The notes below the pieces were generated by a model. That model ran no database searches. It saw nothing but the letters and a program-made list of their open reading frames with translations, and was not told the origin of the DNA. DNA of 64,000 nt. Origin: Chloroflexota bacterium (GTDB lineage Bacteria; Chloroflexota; Limnocylindria; Limnocylindrales; CSP1-4). Below are positions 30,603 through 41,242 of this stretch, one piece after another. Positions within the stretch are counted from its first letter, which is position 1, and each line of letters starts with the position of its first letter. Made by a program: the position numbers and the translations under genes. Location: contig CANJLL010000006.1 in NCBI GenBank assembly GCA_947475545.1, forward strand, positions 173,669-237,668. Reading direction: 5' to 3'.

Positions 30603-31799
30603 CTAGGCCTGGGACGCGCCCGCCGGTGCGGGCGAGGGCTCATCGGGGATGACATCGTCGAGCGGGACACGCGGCTCGCCCGGGCGGCGCATGAGGTCGG
30701 CGAGCGCCGCCGGAATGGGGTCCACCGAGTCCCAGTCGACGGGCGCCCGGACGTGGACGTCGGCGGGGTTCACGGCCGCCTCGCCCGCCGGGCCGCGGGC
30801 AGGATCGGCCGTCCACTCCAGCGTGATGGCGCCGGAGGTGAAGCCGGCCCCAAAGGCCACCATGACGATCCGGTCGCCCTGCTTGATCCGCCCGGAGTTC
30901 ACGGCCTCGGCGAGCGCGATGGGCACCGACGCGGCCGACGTGTTCCCGTAGCGGTCCAGGTTGACGAACATCTTGTCCATCGGGAGGTCCAGGCCCTTGG
31001 CCACCGCCTCGATGATCCGGATGTTGGCCTGGTGCGGGATGAACAGGTCGATGTCGGAGGGCTGCAGGCCGGCCTTGCGGATGGACGCGAGCGCCGTGGA
31101 GGCAAGCGTGCGGGTGGCGAACCGGTAGGTCTCGCGGCCCTCCATCCGGATGAAGTGCTCGTTCCGCGCCACCGTCTCCCCCGACGACGGGCTCCGGGAT
31201 CCACCCGACGGCAGCCAGATCATGTACGCGCCCTGCGGCTCCGTGGTGAGCTCGATGCCGAGCGCACCGCCGAGCGCGTCCGAGGCCGAGACGACCACGG
31301 CGCCCGCGCCGTCGCCGAACAGGATGCAGGTGTTGCGGTCGGTGTAGTCGAGGAAGCGCGTGAGCAGCTCCGCGCCGATCACCAGCACGTTGCTGGCCAG
31401 CCCCGAGGTCACGTAGGCGTGCGCCGTGGCGTAGGCGTACACGAAGCCGGAGCACGCGGCTGCCACGTCCATGGCGGCGGCCCGGGTGTTCCCGATCGCC
31501 TCCTTGACCAGCGCCGCGGTGGACGGCATGGGGTAGTCCGGCGTGAGCGTGGCGACCAGGATCAGGTCGATGTCGTCGGGCGCCAGCCCCGCGGTGGCGA
31601 TGGCGCGCAGGCCCGCGACCGCGGCCATCGAGGCGGTGGTCTCGTGGGCGGCGGCAACGTGGCGCTCGCGCATGCCGGTGCGCGACACGATCCATTCGTC
31701 GGTGGTGTCGACCAGCTTCTCCAGATCCTTGTTGGTCAGGATCTGCTCCGGGGCGTAATGGCCCCAGCCGGTGATGTGGGCGGCGCGCGGAGCGCTCAC
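30603..31799 (-). CDS. fabH: 3-oxoacyl-ACP synthase III
   Basis: DEWIVSRTGMRERH, DVAAACSGFVYAYATA, IPHQANIRI, DRYGNTSAASVPIAL; extended C-terminus. Confidence 0.93.
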   Translation of the reverse strand: MSAPRAAHITGWGHYAPEQILTNKDLEKLVDTTDEWIVSRTGMRERHVAAAHETTASMAAVAGLRAIATAGLAPDDIDLILVATLTPDYPMPSTAALVKEAIGNTRAAAMDVAAACSGFVYAYATAHAYVTSGLASNVLVIGAELLTRFLDYTDRNTCILFGDGAGAVVVSASDALGGALGIELTTEPQGAYMIWLPSGGSRSPSSGETVARNEHFIRMEGRETYRFATRTLASTALASIRKAGLQPSDIDLFIPHQANIRIIEAVAKGLDLPMDKMFVNLDRYGNTSAASVPIALAEAVNSGRIKQGDRIVMVAFGAGFTSGAITLEWTADPARGPAGEAAVNPADVHVRAPVDWDSVDPIPAALADLMRRPGEPRVPLDDVIPDEPSPAPAGASQA

Positions 31800-32389
31800 A
31801 GGGGATCCACCTCGATCAGGGGCTGCCTGGCCTTGACCAGCTGGCCGTTCTCCGCGACCACCTTGACCACGCGGCCGGCGAGGTCGGACTTGATCTCGTT
31901 GAAGAGCTTCATGGCCTCGATCAGGCCGATGACCTGGCCAACAGCCACCTCGCCGCCGATCCGCACGTACGGGGCGGAGCCGGGGGCCGGGGCGCCGTAG
32001 TAGATCCCGGTCAGGGGCGCCTTGACCGACGGGCGAGCCGGGGCCGGGGCGGGCGTCGCGGCAGGGTTGGCAGCCTCCGCGGGGAGGGCCTGCGTGGGTG
32101 CCGGCGCCGGGCCGTAGAAGGCGGGCGAGCCGCCGGCCTGGGCCGTCGCGGCGGCGACCGCGATGGCTGTCGGCTTGCGCAGCACGAGGCCCGTCCCACC
32201 GGCCTCCACCTCGATCTCGGAGAGGTCGCTCTTCTCGAGGAGACCCGCCAGCTGATCGATCAGGGCCAGCAGCGACGCGTCCCCCGCCGAGACGGATGCG
32301 GGCGGGGGCGATGCCGGTTCGGTCGATGCCGCGGTCGGCGATGCCGTGCCCGAAGCGCCGTCCGGTAGCGACTGCTCCGCGTCGCTCAT
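31796..32389 (-). CDS. accB: Biotin carboxyl carrier protein of acetyl-CoA carboxylase
   Basis: BCCP N-terminal LIDQLAGLLEKSDLSEIEVE and biotinylation motif IEAMKLFNEI. Confidence 0.93.
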   Translation of the reverse strand: MSDAEQSLPDGASGTASPTAASTEPASPPPASVSAGDASLLALIDQLAGLLEKSDLSEIEVEAGGTGLVLRKPTAIAVAAATAQAGGSPAFYGPAPAPTQALPAEAANPAATPAPAPARPSVKAPLTGIYYGAPAPGSAPYVRIGGEVAVGQVIGLIEAMKLFNEIKSDLAGRVVKVVAENGQLVKARQPLIEVDPL

Positions 32390-33684
32390 GACTCCCACCG
32401 CCGAAGCACCAGCGCCGTGTTCTGGCCGCCGAAGCCGAACGAGTTGGAGATGGCAATCCGGACATCCTGGCGCCGGGCGACGCCGGCGACCACGTCCAGG
32501 CCCCCGGTGCCATCCTCGGGATCCACCAGGTTGAGGGTGGGCGGGACCCAGCCCTCGCGGATGGTCTGGATGGTGACGATCGCCTCGATGGCACCCGCCG
32601 CGCCCAGGGTGTGGCCCAGCATCGACTTGTTGGCCGTCACGGTGGCGTGCCGGGCGCGCTCCCCCAGGATCGTCGAGATCGCCTGGATCTCGGTCTTGTC
32701 ACCCTCCGGGGTTGAGGTGGCGTGCGCGTTGACGTGGTCCACGTCCGAGGCGGAGATCCCGGCCTTCTCCAGCGCCCGACGGGCCGCCCGGACCGCGCCC
32801 GCGCCACCGGGGGCCGGCAGCGTGAGGTGGTAGCCGTCGGCCGTGGCGCCGTAGCCCACCAGCTCGGCGAGGACCTGGGCGCCGCGCGCCTGCGCGCTCT
32901 CGAGTGCCTCCAGCACGACCACGCCGGCGCCCTCGGCGATGACGAAGCCATCACGGCCCTTGTCGAATGGCCGCGACGCCGCCGCGGGATCGTCGTTGCG
33001 GGTGCTCAGCGCCTTCATGGCGCAGAAGCCGCCGACGAGGGCCTCGTGGAGCGCCGCCTCGGCGCCGCCGGCGATCATCAGGTCCGCGTCGCCCCGGCGG
33101 ATGGTCTCGAACGCCTCGCCCAGCGCGTGCCCGCTGCTGGCACAGGCCGAGACCGTGGCAAAGGATGGGCCCAGCGGCCCGAACGTCATGGGGATCTGGC
33201 CGGCCGCCATGTTGGGGATGCCCATCGGGATCATGAACGGACCGATCCGGTCCGGACCGCGCTCGGCAAAGCTGATGACGTTAGCAAACATGGTGCTGAC
33301 GCCACCCAGGCCGGTGGCCAGGATGGTGCCGGTCCGCTCGGCCAGGTCGCCCTCGAGGCGTGCCGGCAGGCCGGCCTGGTCCATCGCCTGGCGCGTGGCG
33401 ACGAGGGCCAGCTGGATGAACCGGTCGGTGCGCCGGAGGTCCTTGCGGTCCATCACCCCCGAGGCGTCCAGGTCGCGGACCTCGCCGGCAATCTGGGAGG
33501 CGAGCCGGGAGGGGTCGTAGGCCTCGATCCGGCGGACGCCGGAACGGCCGGCGATCAGGCCGGCCCACGTGCTGGCGACGTCGTTGCCCAGCGACGTGAC
33601 GGCGCCCATCCCCGTGATGACGACGCGGCGCGCGTCGGAGCGACGCGCGTCCGTGCGGCGCGGTCCCGCGTCCCCGTCGCTCAC
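32386..33684 (-). CDS. fabF: 3-oxoacyl-ACP synthase II
   Basis: RRVVITGMGAVTSLG, SACASSGHALGEAFETI, NAHATSTPEGDKTE, NKSMLGHTLGAAGAIEAI. Confidence 0.94.
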   Translation of the reverse strand: MSDGDAGPRRTDARRSDARRVVITGMGAVTSLGNDVASTWAGLIAGRSGVRRIEAYDPSRLASQIAGEVRDLDASGVMDRKDLRRTDRFIQLALVATRQAMDQAGLPARLEGDLAERTGTILATGLGGVSTMFANVISFAERGPDRIGPFMIPMGIPNMAAGQIPMTFGPLGPSFATVSACASSGHALGEAFETIRRGDADLMIAGGAEAALHEALVGGFCAMKALSTRNDDPAAASRPFDKGRDGFVIAEGAGVVVLEALESAQARGAQVLAELVGYGATADGYHLTLPAPGGAGAVRAARRALEKAGISASDVDHVNAHATSTPEGDKTEIQAISTILGERARHATVTANKSMLGHTLGAAGAIEAIVTIQTIREGWVPPTLNLVDPEDGTGGLDVVAGVARRQDVRIAISNSFGFGGQNTALVLRRWES

Positions 33685-34430
33685 CGGACCAGCTTCCCCG
33701 ACCGAACCGTGGCGGCCCGGTAGACATCCCCCGGGAGGCCGCGCGCCGAGATCGCGTTGGCGGCGGCCAGCTCGTCGAACGGGGTCCGGCGGATCTCCGC
33801 GCGGACCTGGTCGCCCTCGATCTCGATCATCGCCCAGGAGGCGGTGGGCTCCCCGTCGAGGACGTAGCCCGCGCTCCCGCCGTTGACGATCATCTTCCAG
33901 CCAAAGTCCCGGATCTCAGGCAGGTGGGTGTGCCCGCAGCAGATGACGCGCGCATCCGTCTTGGACAGCCGCTCCATGACCACCGTCACGTCGATGAAGG
34001 CGTCGAAGCCGGCGGTCTGCGAGCCGGGCGAAGCGTGGGTGAGCAGGAGCAGCGTGTCCTCGCACCAGAGCCGGCGCTCGGCGGGGAGACGGCGGAGCCA
34101 GCCCAGCCGCTCGGGGCCCAGGGCCTCGTGCGCCCACTCGGCCGCCTCGCGGTAGCTGTCTGGGATGCCGTCGGCCAGCCACGGGAAGGCGCCGGTGTAG
34201 TCGAAGTCGGCCACCGCGATGTCGGTGTTGCCCGAGATGACCAGCGCCCCGTGGGCCTCCAGCTCGCGGATACCATCGACCGTCGCCGCGGGATCCGGCC
34301 CGTTGAGCGCGTAGTCGCCGGCCACCAGGACCGCGTCCGGGGCCTCCTTCACGATCGCCGCGCGGACCGCATCGAGCGCGAACGAGTTGCCGTGGATGTC
34401 GGACAGCAGCGCGACCCGGATGATGCTCAC
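33681..34430 (-). CDS. Calcineurin-like metallophosphoesterase
   Basis: LLSDIHGN, VAGDY, SGNTD, LTHASPGS, CCGHTHLP. Confidence 0.88.
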   Translation of the reverse strand: MSIIRVALLSDIHGNSFALDAVRAAIVKEAPDAVLVAGDYALNGPDPAATVDGIRELEAHGALVISGNTDIAVADFDYTGAFPWLADGIPDSYREAAEWAHEALGPERLGWLRRLPAERRLWCEDTLLLLTHASPGSQTAGFDAFIDVTVVMERLSKTDARVICCGHTHLPEIRDFGWKMIVNGGSAGYVLDGEPTASWAMIEIEGDQVRAEIRRTPFDELAAANAISARGLPGDVYRAATVRSGKLVR

Positions 34431-34885
34431 TTGAGCACCCCCTCGTTCGGGATGATGAAGCTGATGATGGCCTGGCAGGCCACCTCGCCGTCCACGCTGG
34501 CCACGGCCTGGGCGCGCCCGAAGCGGGAGCCCAGCTTCTCCATGGTGATCTCCAGGCGGAGGACGTCGCCCGGGCTCACGACGCGCTTGAAGCGGCAGTC
34601 GTCGATGCCCGCGAAGAGCCCGATCCGGTCGCCGAACCCGGGCTGCTTGGCCACGTAGACCGCCATGGTCTGCGCCAGGGCCTCCACCTGGAGGACGCCG
34701 GGCATGACCGGGAGGCCCGGGAAGTGGCCCTGGAAGAACCACTCCGACGCGGTCACCGCCTTGATCCCCACGATCCGCTTCGCGTCGGGGTCGTACTCGA
34801 CGATTCGATCGACGAGCAGGACGGGCCAGCGATGCGGGATCAGCTCCATGATCTCGCGGGTGGTCAGGACGGTGGCGTCGGTCAC
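34427..34885 (-). CDS. fabZ: 3-hydroxyacyl-ACP dehydratase
   Basis: IMELIPHRWPVLLVDRIVEY, GHFPGLPVMPGVLQVEALAQ. Confidence 0.94.
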   Translation of the reverse strand: MTDATVLTTREIMELIPHRWPVLLVDRIVEYDPDAKRIVGIKAVTASEWFFQGHFPGLPVMPGVLQVEALAQTMAVYVAKQPGFGDRIGLFAGIDDCRFKRVVSPGDVLRLEITMEKLGSRFGRAQAVASVDGEVACQAIISFIIPNEGVLK

Positions 34886-34979: not shown

Positions 34980-36353
34980 TCACTGGCCGCGCGCGGCGGC
35001 GGCGAGGAACGCGGCGCTCCCCACCCGGTCCAGGAGGTTCGTGGTCATGCGGCCGTCGAGGAAGGCGTCGTTGACCAGCAGCGCCCGATGGATGGGCACG
35101 TTGGTGACGATCCCCTCCACGACCAGCTCGTCGAGCGCGCTGCGGACACGCGCGATCGCCGTGGCCCGGTCGGGGCCCCACGCGATCAGCTTGCCCAACA
35201 GGGAGTCGTAGAACGGCGGGACCTCGTAGCCCGAGTACAGGTGGCTGTCCATGCGGATGCCCGGGCCGCCCGGCGCCAGGTAGCGCTCGACCACGCCGGC
35301 GCCGGGACGGAAGTCGTTCTCCGCGTCCTCGGCGTTGATCCGCAGCTCGATGGCGTGGCCCGTCTGGCGGACGTCCGACTGGGTGAACCCCAGCGGCTCC
35401 CCGGCGGCGATCCGGATCTGCGTGGCGACCAGGTCGATGCCGGTCCGCATCTCGGTGATGGGATGCTCCACCTGGATCCGGCAGTTGATCTCGATGAAGT
35501 AGAAGTTCCCCTCGCGATCCACCAGGAACTCCAGCGTCCCGACGTTCTCGTAGCCGGCGGCCACGGCGGCCCGGATCGCCTTCTCGCACAGCTCCGCGCG
35601 TGCGGTGTCCGAGAGGGCGGGCGTGGGTGCCTCCTCGAGGATCTTCTGGTGGCGGCGCTGGACCGAGCAATCGCGCTCACCGAGGTGGACGCCGCTGCCG
35701 TAGCGATCCACGGCGATCTGGACCTCGACGTGCCGGTTGTCCTCCAGCCAGCGCTCCAGGTAGAGCGAGTCGTCGCCGAAGGCGGCGCGGGCTTCCGAGC
35801 GGCACAGCTTCATGGCCGTCTCCAGCTCGCGCTGGGAGCGGACCATGCGCATGCCCTTGCCGCCGCCACCCGCCGACGGCTTGATCAGCACGGGGTAGCC
35901 GATCCGCTCGGCCTCCGCGATGGCGTGCGCGTCGTCGCGCAGCATCCCGTCGGAGCCCGGGATGGTGGGCAGGCCGTGCGCCGCGAGGAGGCGGCGGGTG
36001 CCCTCCTTGCTCGCAAATCGCTCCAGGACATGGGAGGGCGGGCCGATGAAGACCAGGTCGTGGGCGCGGACCACCTCGGCGAAGCCGTCGTCCTCCGACA
36101 GGAACCCGTAGCCGGGATGAATGGCGTCGCAGCCGGTGACCAGGGCCGCCGAGATCACAGCGGGAGCCGACAGGTACGAGCGGCGGGCGTCGGCCGGGCC
36201 GATGCAGATCGCCTCGTCGGCGAGCTGGACGGCGAGGGTGTCGCGGTCCGCTTCGCTGTAGGCGACGACAGCCTCCACGCCCAGCTGGCGGCAGGCGCGC
36301 AGGACGCGCAGGGCGATCTCGCCACGGTTCGCGATCAGGATGCGGTGAAACAT
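34980..36353 (-). CDS. accC: Acetyl-CoA carboxylase, biotin carboxylase subunit
   Basis: FHRILIANRGEIALRVLRACRQLG, KPSAGGGGKGMRMV, EINCRIQVEHPITEM. Confidence 0.95.
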   Translation of the reverse strand: MFHRILIANRGEIALRVLRACRQLGVEAVVAYSEADRDTLAVQLADEAICIGPADARRSYLSAPAVISAALVTGCDAIHPGYGFLSEDDGFAEVVRAHDLVFIGPPSHVLERFASKEGTRRLLAAHGLPTIPGSDGMLRDDAHAIAEAERIGYPVLIKPSAGGGGKGMRMVRSQRELETAMKLCRSEARAAFGDDSLYLERWLEDNRHVEVQIAVDRYGSGVHLGERDCSVQRRHQKILEEAPTPALSDTARAELCEKAIRAAVAAGYENVGTLEFLVDREGNFYFIEINCRIQVEHPITEMRTGIDLVATQIRIAAGEPLGFTQSDVRQTGHAIELRINAEDAENDFRPGAGVVERYLAPGGPGIRMDSHLYSGYEVPPFYDSLLGKLIAWGPDRATAIARVRSALDELVVEGIVTNVPIHRALLVNDAFLDGRMTTNLLDRVGSAAFLAAAARGQ

Positions 36354-36991
36354 CAGGCCGCCTCCCCGTCGCTCGGCTCGTCGGGAGCCGGGAGGGGCCG
36401 CATCTCCATGACGGGCTGGCCGTACTCCACGCCATCGCCCGCCTCCGCGATGAGCGGGCCGACGATCCCGTCCGCGGGAGCCACGACCTCCTGGGGCATG
36501 CCCAGGACGTCCACGGCGCCCAACCGGTCGCCGGCGTGGACCCGGCGCCCGGCAATCCCGGGAAGCGGCCGGAAGATGCCCACGGCGGGGGAGGTGGCGG
36601 GCGGGGTGCCGCCCGGATCGGCGGGGCGCGGCGCAGACTGACGGGCGCCGTCGCGGGTCGGGGCGGGATGGGAGAGCGGGGCGTGTGCCTGTCCGGCCTG
36701 GACCGGGAGGCGGAACTGGCGATCCGTGACGCGGCGCCCGGTGCCGACGGCCTCCAGCGGGCGGCGGAGCCGCACCTTCCAGTCGCCCTCGCGAACCTCG
36801 ATCTCCGCCAGGCCACCGGCCGTGAGGCGGCCGATCAGCACCGGCAGGAGCTCCGTCGCCAGCCGCTCCACGGCGCGGTGATCGGCGACGCGTTCGGCGG
36901 CCGTCCGCTCGGGGGCGGGGTCGCCGGCGGCGGCTTCCGCGGCGCCCCGCGGGCGGAGTTCGCTGGATGGCATGGAGGCGGGATCGGGCAC
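36353..36991 (-). CDS. BCCP-like protein without biotinyl-lysine (AccB paralog)
   Basis: BCCP-like N-terminus VERLATELLPVLIGRLTAGGLAEIEVREGDWKVRLRRP and lipoyl/biotinyl fold C-terminus, but DVLGMPQEVVAP replaces EAMKMxNEIxAP. Confidence 0.8.
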   Translation of the reverse strand: MPDPASMPSSELRPRGAAEAAAGDPAPERTAAERVADHRAVERLATELLPVLIGRLTAGGLAEIEVREGDWKVRLRRPLEAVGTGRRVTDRQFRLPVQAGQAHAPLSHPAPTRDGARQSAPRPADPGGTPPATSPAVGIFRPLPGIAGRRVHAGDRLGAVDVLGMPQEVVAPADGIVGPLIAEAGDGVEYGQPVMEMRPLPAPDEPSDGEAA

Positions 36992-36994
36992 GCG

Positions 36995-38023
36995 CTAGAC
37001 CTCGTCGCGGGCGGGCGGTTCGTCGCGCTGGCGACCCTGGCCCGGCTGCGGGCCCGTGGGGCTCGCCCAGCGGTTGATGTCGAGAAGATTCCGGAGCCGA
37101 TCCGCGAGACCGGTCCGCTCGGGAGCCGGCACCGCGGGGGCGGCAGTCTCAGTGTACGGGCCCAGCGCCCGGAAGCGCCGATAGCGAGCCTCGACCAGCT
37201 GGTCGGTCGGCACGGGGACCAGGGCGTCCAGCCAGCCCACGATCGTGGCCCGCAGGTGGCGTGCCGTCTCGGCGTGATCGGTATGCGCGCCGCCCGCCGG
37301 CTCGGGGACGACGACATCCACGACGCCGAGGCGTTGCTGCTCGCCGGCGCTCATCCGCATGGCCCGGGCGGCGGTTGGGGCCTCCTCGGGGGTACGCCAC
37401 AGGATGCTGGCGCAGCCCTCCGGCGTGATGACCGAGTAGGTGGCGTTCTCGAGCGCGATCACCACGTCCGCCACGGCCAGGGCCAGGGCCCCGCCGGAGC
37501 CGCCCTCGCCCGTGATGACCGCCACGATCGGCGTGCGCAGTCGGCTCATCAGGGCGATGGATCGCGCGATGGCATCCGCGATCCCGCGCTCCTCCGATTC
37601 GGCGCCGGGATGCGCACCCGGCACGTCGATCAGCGTGACGATGGGAAGGCCGAAGCGCTCGGCCATCTCCATGACCCGCATGGCCTTTCGGTAGCCCTCC
37701 GGGTGGGGCATCCCGAAGCTCCGCCGGATGTTCTCCTCCGTGTCGGCGCCCTTCTGCATCCCGACGATCGCGACCCGGTGGCGGTCGATCGTGGCCAGCC
37801 CGGCCACCATGGCCCCGTCGTCGCCGAAGAGCCGGTCGCCGTGAAGCTCCACCCAGCCGTCGGCCATGAGGCGGATCAGCTCCAGGGTGTGTGGGCGCCG
37901 CAGGTTGCGGGCCAGCTGGACCCGCGCCCAGACGGCCGCCTGGTTGTCGGCCGAGTCGGCCGGGACGGCCGGGAAGGGGGCCGGGGTGGCGTCGCGGCTT
38001 CGGCCAAGCAGGCGGTCAACCAC
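36995..38023 (-). CDS. accA: Acetyl-CoA carboxylase carboxyltransferase subunit alpha
   Basis: ELHGDRLFGDD, MPHPEGYRKAMRVMEMAERFGLPIVTLIDVPGAHPGAESEERG, EGCASILWR. Confidence 0.94.
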   Translation of the reverse strand: MVDRLLGRSRDATPAPFPAVPADSADNQAAVWARVQLARNLRRPHTLELIRLMADGWVELHGDRLFGDDGAMVAGLATIDRHRVAIVGMQKGADTEENIRRSFGMPHPEGYRKAMRVMEMAERFGLPIVTLIDVPGAHPGAESEERGIADAIARSIALMSRLRTPIVAVITGEGGSGGALALAVADVVIALENATYSVITPEGCASILWRTPEEAPTAARAMRMSAGEQQRLGVVDVVVPEPAGGAHTDHAETARHLRATIVGWLDALVPVPTDQLVEARYRRFRALGPYTETAAPAVPAPERTGLADRLRNLLDINRWASPTGPQPGQGRQRDEPPARDEV

Positions 38024-39044
38024 GGGATGCCTCGGCGGTTGGCGATGCGGCGGACGGGGCGGACGACGCCGGAGCGGGGGCCGGCAGCGGGGGCGCCGGC
38101 GCCGGGGCGGGCTCCTCGGCCGGGGCCAGGACGCGGTCGGCGAGCGAGCTGAGGATCCCCAGCGGCCGGAACGAGGAGAGGCCCAGCGAGGAAGTGGCGG
38201 CCTCCGCGGTCAGTGCACGCGGCTGCAGGTAGCGCAGGAGGAGCGCCAGCTCGGCGCGCAGCTCGGAGCGGTGGACGACGCGGTCGACGAAGCCGTGGTC
38301 GAACAGGAACTCCGCCCGCTGGAAGCCCGGCGGCAGCTCGGCCCCGATGGTCCCCGCGGCGACGCGGGCGCCGGCAAACCCGATGAGCGCGTTGGGCTCG
38401 GCCAGGTTGACATCGCCCAGGACCGCGTACGAGGCAAAGACCCCGCCGGTGGTGGGATCAGACAGCAGGCTGACGTACGGGACGCCGGCCATGCGCAGCC
38501 GCTCCAGCGCGCCGACGGTCTTGGCCAGCTGCATCAGGGCCAGCGTGCCCTCCTGCATCCGGGCCCCGCCGGATGCCGAGACGATCAGCAGCGGGATGCG
38601 TCGGGCGAGCGCGTCCTCCGCGGCCCGGGTCACCTTCTCGCCCACGACCGCGCCCATCGAGCCGCCCATGAAGCCGAAGTCCATGACGCAGACCGAGACG
38701 GGCTGGCCGTCGATGGTGCCGATCCCCCGGACGGCGGCGTCGCGGAGACCGGTCGCTGTCTGGGCCGCGATGACCCGGTCCGGGTACGGCTTCTGGTCGA
38801 CGAAGCCCAGCGGGTCGACGGACTGGAGGCCGGCGTCCAGCTCCTCGAACGAACCGTGGTCGAGGAGCAGGTCCAGGCGGGCCTGGGCCGAGAGGCGGAA
38901 GTGGTGGCCGCACGACGGGCAGACCCGGGTGGCCTTGTCGAGCTGCTTGTTGAAGAGCATCTCGCCGCACGACGGGCACTTGGTCCACAGGTCCGGCGGA
39001 TAGGCGTCGCGGCGTGGCCGGAAGGACGGCAGCTTGATCGGCAT
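38016..39044 (-). CDS. accD: Acetyl-CoA carboxylase carboxyltransferase subunit beta
   Basis: Zinc ribbon CPSCGEMLFNKQL...CPSCGHHFRL; GGSMGAVVGEKVTRAAE, GGARMQEGTLALMQLAKT. Confidence 0.94.
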   Translation of the reverse strand: MPIKLPSFRPRRDAYPPDLWTKCPSCGEMLFNKQLDKATRVCPSCGHHFRLSAQARLDLLLDHGSFEELDAGLQSVDPLGFVDQKPYPDRVIAAQTATGLRDAAVRGIGTIDGQPVSVCVMDFGFMGGSMGAVVGEKVTRAAEDALARRIPLLIVSASGGARMQEGTLALMQLAKTVGALERLRMAGVPYVSLLSDPTTGGVFASYAVLGDVNLAEPNALIGFAGARVAAGTIGAELPPGFQRAEFLFDHGFVDRVVHRSELRAELALLLRYLQPRALTAEAATSSLGLSSFRPLGILSSLADRVLAPAEEPAPAPAPPLPAPAPASSAPSAASPTAEASRG

Positions 39045-39670
39045 CAGTCCGGCCGCTCCACGCCGGCCTGCCGGGGCTGAACCAGCCGCAGCGCATGGGC
39101 CGCCCGGGCCGCGCGGGCCATGGGCGAGACGGGGTGGTGCGAGCGGCGCCAGGCCACGATGGCCGCCCCGGCGATGGAGATGGCCGCGGAGGCCACGGCA
39201 CCGCCGATCAGGATTGGCCGCGCGTGACGGCGCAGGGCACCCTCCGCGCCCCCGTCGTCGTCGCCGCGGAAGGCAGATGGACGCAGCGCGGCAGGGGCGT
39301 CCGGGTCGGACGGACCGGTCACGTCGGCCAGACCCGACAGGTCGACGAGGTCGGCCAGATCCGTCACGCGGCCGCGGCGGATCGGCACCGGGACGCCTTC
39401 CGAGCCCACGGCGCGGGCGACGTGCATCGCGGCCGCGGCCTCGGCAAGCCGAAGCGCGAGACGCTCCTCGAAGCGGAACGAGGGATGAAACCGGGGCAGG
39501 TCGCGGCGGAGCCGGAGGGACGCGAGACGGACGCCCCGGTCGAGGTCCCCGCCCTCCCAGCCAAAGGCGGCAGCACCCGCGGTGGCGTCTCCGCGCGTGG
39601 CCAGCAGCGACTCCAGGTAGCGGTCGGTGATGAGCGCCTCGACGTCATGGGTGTCGCGCGTGGCGGTCAT
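39044..39670 (-). CDS. Single-TM protein encoded next to ECF sigma; possible anti-sigma/regulatory partner
   Basis: Overlaps the sigma gene stop by 4 nt; single hydrophobic segment PILIGGAVASAAISIAGAAIVAW; no HxxxCxxC zinc motif. Confidence 0.5.
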   Translation of the reverse strand: MTATRDTHDVEALITDRYLESLLATRGDATAGAAAFGWEGGDLDRGVRLASLRLRRDLPRFHPSFRFEERLALRLAEAAAAMHVARAVGSEGVPVPIRRGRVTDLADLVDLSGLADVTGPSDPDAPAALRPSAFRGDDDGGAEGALRRHARPILIGGAVASAAISIAGAAIVAWRRSHHPVSPMARAARAAHALRLVQPRQAGVERPD

Positions 39671-40287
39671 CGCGTGGTCGCTTCCCCGTGTCCGCGGCCC
39701 TCGCCACGGCCCGTCAGGTCACGGGCGACGCTCCGGAGGCCGCGATGGATCAGCACCCGAACGGCCCCCTCGGAGCGGCCCAGGACGCCGGCGATCTCGG
39801 CCGTGGTCATCTCGTCCACGAAGCGGAGCACCAGCGCGCGCCGCCGGTCCGCCGGCAGCCGGTCCACCGCCTGCCAGGCTGCCGCGGCCTCTTCACGCGC
39901 GACGACATCGCGCTCCACGTCGAGCGGGTGAACGGCGGTGGTAGCCGCCTCGAGGGGAGCGGTGGCCGTGCGACGCGTGGTCCGGCGCTGGGAGGCAATG
40001 GCGTTCCGCGCAATCTGGAACAGCCAGACCTTGAAGGTCGACGCGCCGTCGCCATCCTCGGGGCGCGCCCGCTCCTCGAACCGGGCAAGGTTCGCCAGGG
40101 CGGACAGGAACGTCCGCTCGGTCGCGTCCTCGGCGGCGTGATGATCGCCGAGCTCGTAGTACGCCAAGCTGTACACCTGCGCGAGATACCTGCGATAGAG
40201 GGCGTCGAAGGCGGCGGGGTCATGTTGGGCCGCCTCCACCATGCCGCGGTCGCGGTCGAGGTGGATCACCCGCGGCCCCTCCTCCCC
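39667..40287 (-). CDS. ECF-type RNA polymerase sigma-70 factor
   Basis: FDALYRRYLAQVYSLAYYELGDHHAAEDATERTFLSAL, WLFQIARNAIASQRR, FVDEMTTAEIAGVLGRSEGAVRVLIHRGLRSV; start uncertain. Confidence 0.9.
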   Translation of the reverse strand, partial: GEEGPRVIHLDRDRGMVEAAQHDPAAFDALYRRYLAQVYSLAYYELGDHHAAEDATERTFLSALANLARFEERARPEDGDGASTFKVWLFQIARNAIASQRRTTRRTATAPLEAATTAVHPLDVERDVVAREEAAAAWQAVDRLPADRRRALVLRFVDEMTTAEIAGVLGRSEGAVRVLIHRGLRSVARDLTGRGEGRGHGEATTR

Positions 40288-40339
40288 CATCGGTCGCGGA
40301 GCCGCACTCGTCTTCCTGAACGCCGGTCGCTGCACGGTG

Positions 40340-41242
40340 TTACACCCCCGCCGCAGAGTTGGCCGCAGGCTCTCCGGCCGGCGCCAGCCGGAGATGGCGG
40401 ACCTCGCCGCCCATGATCAGCCGCTCGCCGCCCGGGACGGCCGGATCGGCCACCACGAGCGCCCCGGTCCGGGCATCGACGCCCAGGGCCCGGACCACCT
40501 CGTCGGATCCGTCGGGGCGCTGAAGTCGCACGAAGCGGCCTACCACCAGCTGCCTGAGCGTCCAGTCGCCGACATCGAAGCGGCCGCCCTGGAGCGCCGC
40601 CACCCGCACCTCGAGCCGGCCGAGGAAGCCATCGAGCAGCGCGACCATGTCGATCGGTCGGCCGTGTGACGCCTCGCGGAGCGACGTCATGCCGGGCGCC
40701 AGCGCAGGCGGGAACGCTTCGGCCGGCCAGTCCGCATTGATCCCGATGCCGATGATCGCCGTGGGGGTGGCCGTCCCCAGGCCACTCGTCTCGCCCAGCA
40801 CGCCGGCGAGCTTCCGATACCCCGGGCCGCCCGCGTCCCGCGTGGGAAGCTGGAGCCCGGCCTGGGCCGCCCGATGGACGTCGGCGGGGTCCACCGTCTC
40901 CTCGACCACCATGTCGTTGGGCCACTTGAGCCGGATCGAGTGCTCGGCCAGGCCGGCGGCGTCCTCCGCGGCGTCGGCCATCGCCAGGCTCACCACGGCG
41001 CCCAGCTGCCAGACGCGGTCCGGCGCCAGCCAGCCGGGCCGGAAGCCCAGGGAGAGAAGGAGCGCACGGCCCGGGGGCGCGGTCCAGGTCCGGCCCTGGC
41101 GGCCGCGGCCCGCCGACTGCTCGTCGGCCACGGCCAGGCAGACCTCGGCCGTCCCATCGTCCAGCCAGCCGCGGACAACGTCGCTGGTGGAGGCCACGAC
41201 GGGAAAGCGCTCCTGGCGCGCCAGGAATCCGGACACGGTCAC
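40340..41242 (-). CDS. birA: Biotin-[acetyl-CoA-carboxylase] ligase (no N-terminal HTH)
   Basis: DEQSAGRGRQGRTWTAPPGRALLLSL, RLKWPNDMVV, GIGINAD. Confidence 0.9.
   Translation of the reverse strand: MTVSGFLARQERFPVVASTSDVVRGWLDDGTAEVCLAVADEQSAGRGRQGRTWTAPPGRALLLSLGFRPGWLAPDRVWQLGAVVSLAMADAAEDAAGLAEHSIRLKWPNDMVVEETVDPADVHRAAQAGLQLPTRDAGGPGYRKLAGVLGETSGLGTATPTAIIGIGINADWPAEAFPPALAPGMTSLREASHGRPIDMVALLDGFLGRLEVRVAALQGGRFDVGDWTLRQLVVGRFVRLQRPDGSDEVVRALGVDARTGALVVADPAVPGGERLIMGGEVRHLRLAPAGEPAANSAAGV

Follow-up and report, generated by a model that had tools for sequence, protein, structure and literature searches.

Why would a bacterium keep, inside its acc operon, a BCCP-like protein that has lost the lysine to which biotin is normally attached? 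The question was raised by a sequence-only reading of the window, a 64,000-nucleotide stretch of a Chloroflexota contig (CANJLL010000006.1), in which such a paralog had been placed between accC and accA. The coordinates proposed for the gene were correct, and its strand, not given there, is the minus strand (Table 1). Read along this strand, the gene order is birA-like, ECF sigma, an unnamed ORF, accD, accA, the paralog, accC, fabZ, phosphoesterase, fabF, accB, fabH and fabG, where the fab genes were named by their sequences and their order. A gap of 3 nt separates accA from the start of the paralog, whose TGA stop shares bases with the accC start codon ATG (TGATG), an overlap that suggests translational coupling of the paralog with accC, and a promoter and terminator scan of the paralog gene found none. 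The canonical accB (EAMKLFNEI), thought to lie about 4 kb off in the fab operon, is indeed located 3.95 kb away, after fabF.

Table 1. Features of the acc-fab region and of the Lys-less paralog (positions are those of the window).
Feature	Positions	Strand	Remarks
Lys-less BCCP-like paralog	36353-36991	minus	212-aa ORF, GTG start
accC, biotin carboxylase	34980-36353	minus	Pfam/TIGR profile matches; likely partner of the paralog
accA, carboxyltransferase alpha	36995-38023	minus	Pfam/TIGR profile matches
accD, carboxyltransferase beta	38016-39044	minus	Pfam/TIGR profile matches
birA-like biotin protein ligase, operon head	40340-41242	minus	Pfam-type profile match
Canonical fab-type accB	31796-32398	minus	EAMKLFNEI at 31892-31918; Lys164 at 31907-31909
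Former biotinylation site DVLGMPQEVVAP	36476-36511	minus	Gly164 (codon 36500-36502) replaces Lys
N-terminal helix, residues 31-59	36815-36901	minus	AlphaFold2, pLDDT ~90
N-terminal beta-hairpin, residues 63-76	36764-36805	minus	AlphaFold2, confident; conserved in alignments A2/A3
Linker, residues 77-131, disordered, fast-evolving	36599-36763	minus	Low pLDDT; highest regional dN/dS in 7/7 pairs
Biotinyl-type barrel, residues 132-199	36395-36598	minus	pLDDT ~97; Foldseek biotinyl domains
VEYGQ motif, residues 188-192	36416-36430	minus	Glu retained in all 36 Lys-less forms of Chloroflexota

Two further observations concern the neighboring genes. Between birA and accD (39044-40335, minus strand), the gene for an ECF-type sigma factor and an unnamed ORF of 208 aa overlap each other; the latter has one hydrophobic stretch and possibly encodes an anti-sigma. 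The ECF sigma gene was also seen in family f4 of the GTDB class and not in the streamlined family f2. In families f1 and f2, a calcineurin-like phosphoesterase gene (33681-34460 in the window, minus strand) separates fabZ from fabF; it was not seen in f4.

Both halves of a BCCP, as first proposed, could be recognized in the paralog. The Pfam Biotin_lipoyl profile matched above its cut-off (23.4 vs 22.1 bits), and a profile of the orthologs matched E. coli BCCP 4hr7 (2.7e-16) across hairpin and barrel. The match to the BCCP family TIGR00531 was partial (residues 52-197, 30.3 bits) and far under the 115.2-bit cut-off, a failure that is weak by itself because the true accB of the window narrowly misses it as well, with 109.5 bits. 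The best Foldseek matches to the AlphaFold2 model were biotinyl domains (2evb, E. coli 1bdo and 4hr7, and Arabidopsis BCCP1 9a87), and the paralog is thus predicted to keep the barrel fold. At the former biotinylation site, the motif E-x-M-K-M with its biotinyl-Lys is replaced by D-V-L-G-M; DVLGMPQEV aligns with EAMKLFNEI of accB, confirming the Lys to Gly replacement at the codon listed in Table 1. The thumb also departs from the ACC type, its loop being 7 residues shorter in the window paralog than in a canonical BCCP and 6-7 residues shorter in 20/20 class paralogs, in which the distance from the conserved Gly before the thumb to the site is 26-27 residues vs 33 in Lys-bearing single BCCPs, and in which the N-terminal hairpin is retained. 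Mutation of the conserved thumb Tyr and Pro disrupts the function of E. coli BCCP (PMC11926652). Judged by its sequence, the paralog descends from a BCCP and is incapable of biotinylation at the normal site.

The Lys-less form is not a peculiarity of one genome. A profile search matched 111 of 117 class genomes, including 52 of the 53 with a completeness of 90% or more. When the genome itself and 60 relatives were searched at the protein level, 56/61 gave matches, a few of them weaker matches to AccB itself. Leu-Gly occupied the Met-Lys position in all 53 distinct intact class paralogs whose sequences were read directly, a pattern beyond chance, and EAMKM at this site, which the sequence-only reading had held to be incompatible with its proposal, was found in none of the close relatives read. 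The partner accB carried Lys in 24/24 class copies read, and a Lys-bearing AccB coexisted with the paralog in each class genome where both were read. The order accA-[paralog]-accC-fabZ-...-fabF-accB was kept in families f1, f2 and f4, including genomes of ~1.1 Mb, and differed in f3 and f5. In alignment A3, comprising 24 sequences from five families, the invariant columns were VG, G148, LG, G175 and VE-G. These results support the core of the original proposal, namely that a BCCP paralog without the Lys is retained in association with the ACC genes, alongside a distinct AccB that can be biotinylated.

One class copy (L025, in G033), whose reading frame is broken at the hairpin of the biotinylation site, through either an assembly error or a real change, was set aside from the 53 intact orthologs. 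Nine class genomes were without a full paralog. Seven of them were also without an accA match and therefore cannot be scored, the acc operon being either missing from the assembly or diverged past the reach of the search; in the other two, an accA match was cut at the contig end (G078) or stood beside a partial paralog match at the contig end (G053). True absence from some class genomes is thus unsupported.

Outside the class, BCCP-like genes were read from selected genomes in a sample of the phylum, and 17 Chloroflexota genomes carried Lys-less forms, in which the site residue is Gly, Asn or Arg. A second BCCP, Lys-bearing and adjoining fabF, was read in 16 of these 17, while the seventeenth (G358) had a further AccB-sized match. 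In five other sampled genomes the comparable BCCP still had Lys, and the matches read there included no accB linked to fabF. Genome G408 had a second Lys-bearing BCCP copy without fabF. At both fully tested non-class loci the Lys-less gene lay between EF-P, itself after an M24 peptidase, and xseA, and at two further loci an M24 peptidase was nearby. None of the non-class Chloroflexota Lys-less copies read was beside accC, and operon linkage to ACC is therefore not universal. Since efp-accB is a common bacterial gene arrangement, we infer that the EF-P/xseA slot is the older accB position; and since Lys-less Chloroflexota copies occupy this slot, the window paralog is more likely an older BCCP minus its lysine than a fresh duplicate.

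A similar arrangement was encountered in Armatimonadota, where, at the locus of a match in Candidatus Zipacnadia, a BCCP whose site residue is Arg stands between EF-P and accC. A survey around this genome gave 30 loci with the BCCP mostly beside accC; eight of them kept Lys at the site and the other 22 had Arg, Gly, Asn or Thr, in a sample biased by the use of an Arg form as query. A second BCCP carried Lys in 15/15 Armatimonadota genomes read. Retention of a Lys-less BCCP beside a Lys carrier thus extends to at least two phyla, which the sequence-only reading had not foreseen. A lysine shifted by one residue was considered as a substitute: some Armatimonadota copies have it (EALRKLTDV), others have none, and neither does the window paralog. 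The efp-/accC-adjacent Armatimonadota BCCPs that carry Lys are L212, L215, L216, L219, L220, L223, L224 and L226. Genomes G546 and G498 yielded another Lys-bearing BCCP besides the Lys-bearing efp-/accC-adjacent one, and this two-Lys arrangement is possibly an intermediate state.

How often the lysine was lost was addressed with a tree built without the site columns. The fab-type Lys carriers formed a single clade (support 99/95), and with Armatimonadota added, about six changes between K and non-K were required at the site, with a range of 5-6 across bootstraps. Placing all Lys-less forms in one clade was 32.8 log units worse on this set (AU p=0.058) and was not rejected on a smaller Chloroflexota-centred set (AU p 0.10 and 0.23), so that a single loss is disfavoured only marginally. 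The tree suggests repeated loss even inside bacteria; recurrent loss is likely, not proven, as the one-loss tree is not firmly rejected.

The likeness to plant BADC proteins noted in the sequence-only reading holds for the anatomy. Like the BADC of the plastid heteromeric ACCase, the paralog is a motif-less BCCP-like protein alongside a true BCCP: it has a BCCP-like N-terminal segment and a biotinyl-type domain (the profile matches 4hr7 over both), the AMKL/biotinylation motif is missing, and a biotinylatable BCCP coexists with it. In BADC, too, the place of Met-Lys is taken by Leu-Gly. The further claim that such a protein down-regulates ACC should not be carried over, since both an inhibitory role and one as 'glue' in assembly are reported for plant BADC (PMC11926652). 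Plant BADC lack the biotinylation motif and bind BC and BCCP (PMC11926652, PMC7712654), a property that for the paralog would follow by analogy, and they have been described as unique to plant ACC (PMC11926652, 2025). In contrast to them, the paralog is bacterial; in the class, its gene lies inside or adjoins the acc genes and its thumb is shortened. No report of a bacterial BADC or a Lys-less AccB was found in a literature search that lay mostly outside subscription journals; no BADC was found in the PDB by name, and a PDB search with an approximate plant BADC segment returned only BCCPs, other biotinyl chains or unrelated chains. On sequence grounds, the paralog is best read as BADC-like and not filed as a BADC.

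With bacterial AccB/BCCP (TIGR00531; E. coli 4hr7/1bdo) the paralog has the two-part architecture and the fold in common, but it differs in lacking the biotinyl-Lys and E-x-M-K-M, in its altered thumb and in scoring under the family cut-off. Within the same phylum, the BCCP hairpins of four Chloroflexus aurantiacus BC1 subunits form an eight-stranded barrel that joins BC dimers and raises or supports BC activity (PMC11077971), and this hairpin is thought to be equivalent to residues 63-76 of the paralog. BC1 differs in being a single fused BC-BCCP that is biotinylated at E-A-M-K-M (PMC11077971). Non-catalytic subunits of bacterial acyl-CoA carboxylases are cited as 'glue' in PMC11926652, and the proposed role of the paralog resembles theirs in that they are assembly subunits of a carboxylase without catalytic function.

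We consider it probable that the paralog is a non-catalytic, BCCP-derived ACC subunit that works like plant BADC. It would enter the biotin carboxylase-BCCP subcomplex through its N-terminal helix-hairpin and barrel and mix with biotinylated AccB in the hairpin barrel tying BC dimers, a role that we infer from a fused BC-BCCP. In this position it would not carry CO2 but would determine how the subcomplex assembles and what share of its carriers is active, and the net effect could be either activation, as glue, or restraint, through competition for BC.

An unlikely alternative, which nevertheless has to be weighed, is that the older BCCP was freed by the second AccB and now works outside the ACC complex, for example as a scaffold or partner of another enzyme, its nearness to acc genes reflecting operon history. 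The non-class Chloroflexota genes beside EF-P and xseA, away from accC, would fit such a history. However, the class copy lies between accA and accC with its TGATG overlap, the Armatimonadota gene adjoins accC, and the hairpin, which contacts BC in a relative, is among the most conserved parts of the paralog.

A role as a BirA decoy, docking unmodified and thereby coupling biotinylation to the supply of ACC subunits, appears more doubtful still. The birA gene shares the operon, and the Glu of VE[YF]G, which is important for the recognition of E. coli BCCP by BirA, is kept in 36/36 Chloroflexota Lys-less forms and gone from 27 of 28 fab-type Lys carriers. Yet Lys carriers without this Glu must still get biotinylated, and the Armatimonadota Lys-less forms, which have mostly lost it (6/21 keep it), speak against the putative binding. 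The same Glu is also retained by single Chloroflexota BCCPs, unlike fab-type Lys carriers such as the window's accB.

That the paralog is a decaying relic of accB is very improbable and already contradicted. Lys and thumb residues are lost and the linker is disordered and fast-evolving, with dN/dS of 0.20-0.81 in seven pairs, but dN/dS was 0.06-0.17 for the barrel in the same number of pairs, and the helix-hairpin gave 0.40 in one pair and 0.03-0.22 in the other six. A relic would not be constrained in this way, and the low ratios of the Lys-less barrel therefore show that it is constrained. Whole-gene dN/dS against the nearest relative (G001) was 0.34 for the paralog, 0.54 for accB and 0.02 for accC. 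The VG, LG and VE-G motifs are invariant, and the gene is retained in streamlined genomes. Decay, named at the outset as the finding that would overturn the proposal, was not seen (barrel dN/dS about 0.1), and the paralog is under purifying selection; the low dN/dS and the Leu-Gly in 53/53 orthologs also rule out a single-genome error or a pseudogene. Finally, although the barrel fold is kept, it is scarcely credible that biotin, lipoate or another group is carried on a different residue, as the barrel has no Lys at all in 32 of the 54 class copies counted, the window's included, and the K553A substitution abolishes biotinylation of the Chloroflexus BCCP (PMC11077971).

Taken more broadly, the reading of the paralog as a non-catalytic ACC subunit leads to a tentative picture, which may or may not hold: in at least two phyla, a dedicated non-catalytic subunit would have been derived from an older BCCP by several independent losses of Lys and would tune assembly, while a second BCCP of the fab operon does the carrying, with plant BADC as a convergent case. 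Genes of this kind are readily named accB, yet their products cannot bear biotin at the normal site, a warning for annotation. ACC commits carbon to fatty-acid synthesis; if the picture is true, a bacterial counterpart of BADC would offer a simple system for deciding between the inhibitor and the assembly role, and a division of labour between two carriers would have arisen more than once.
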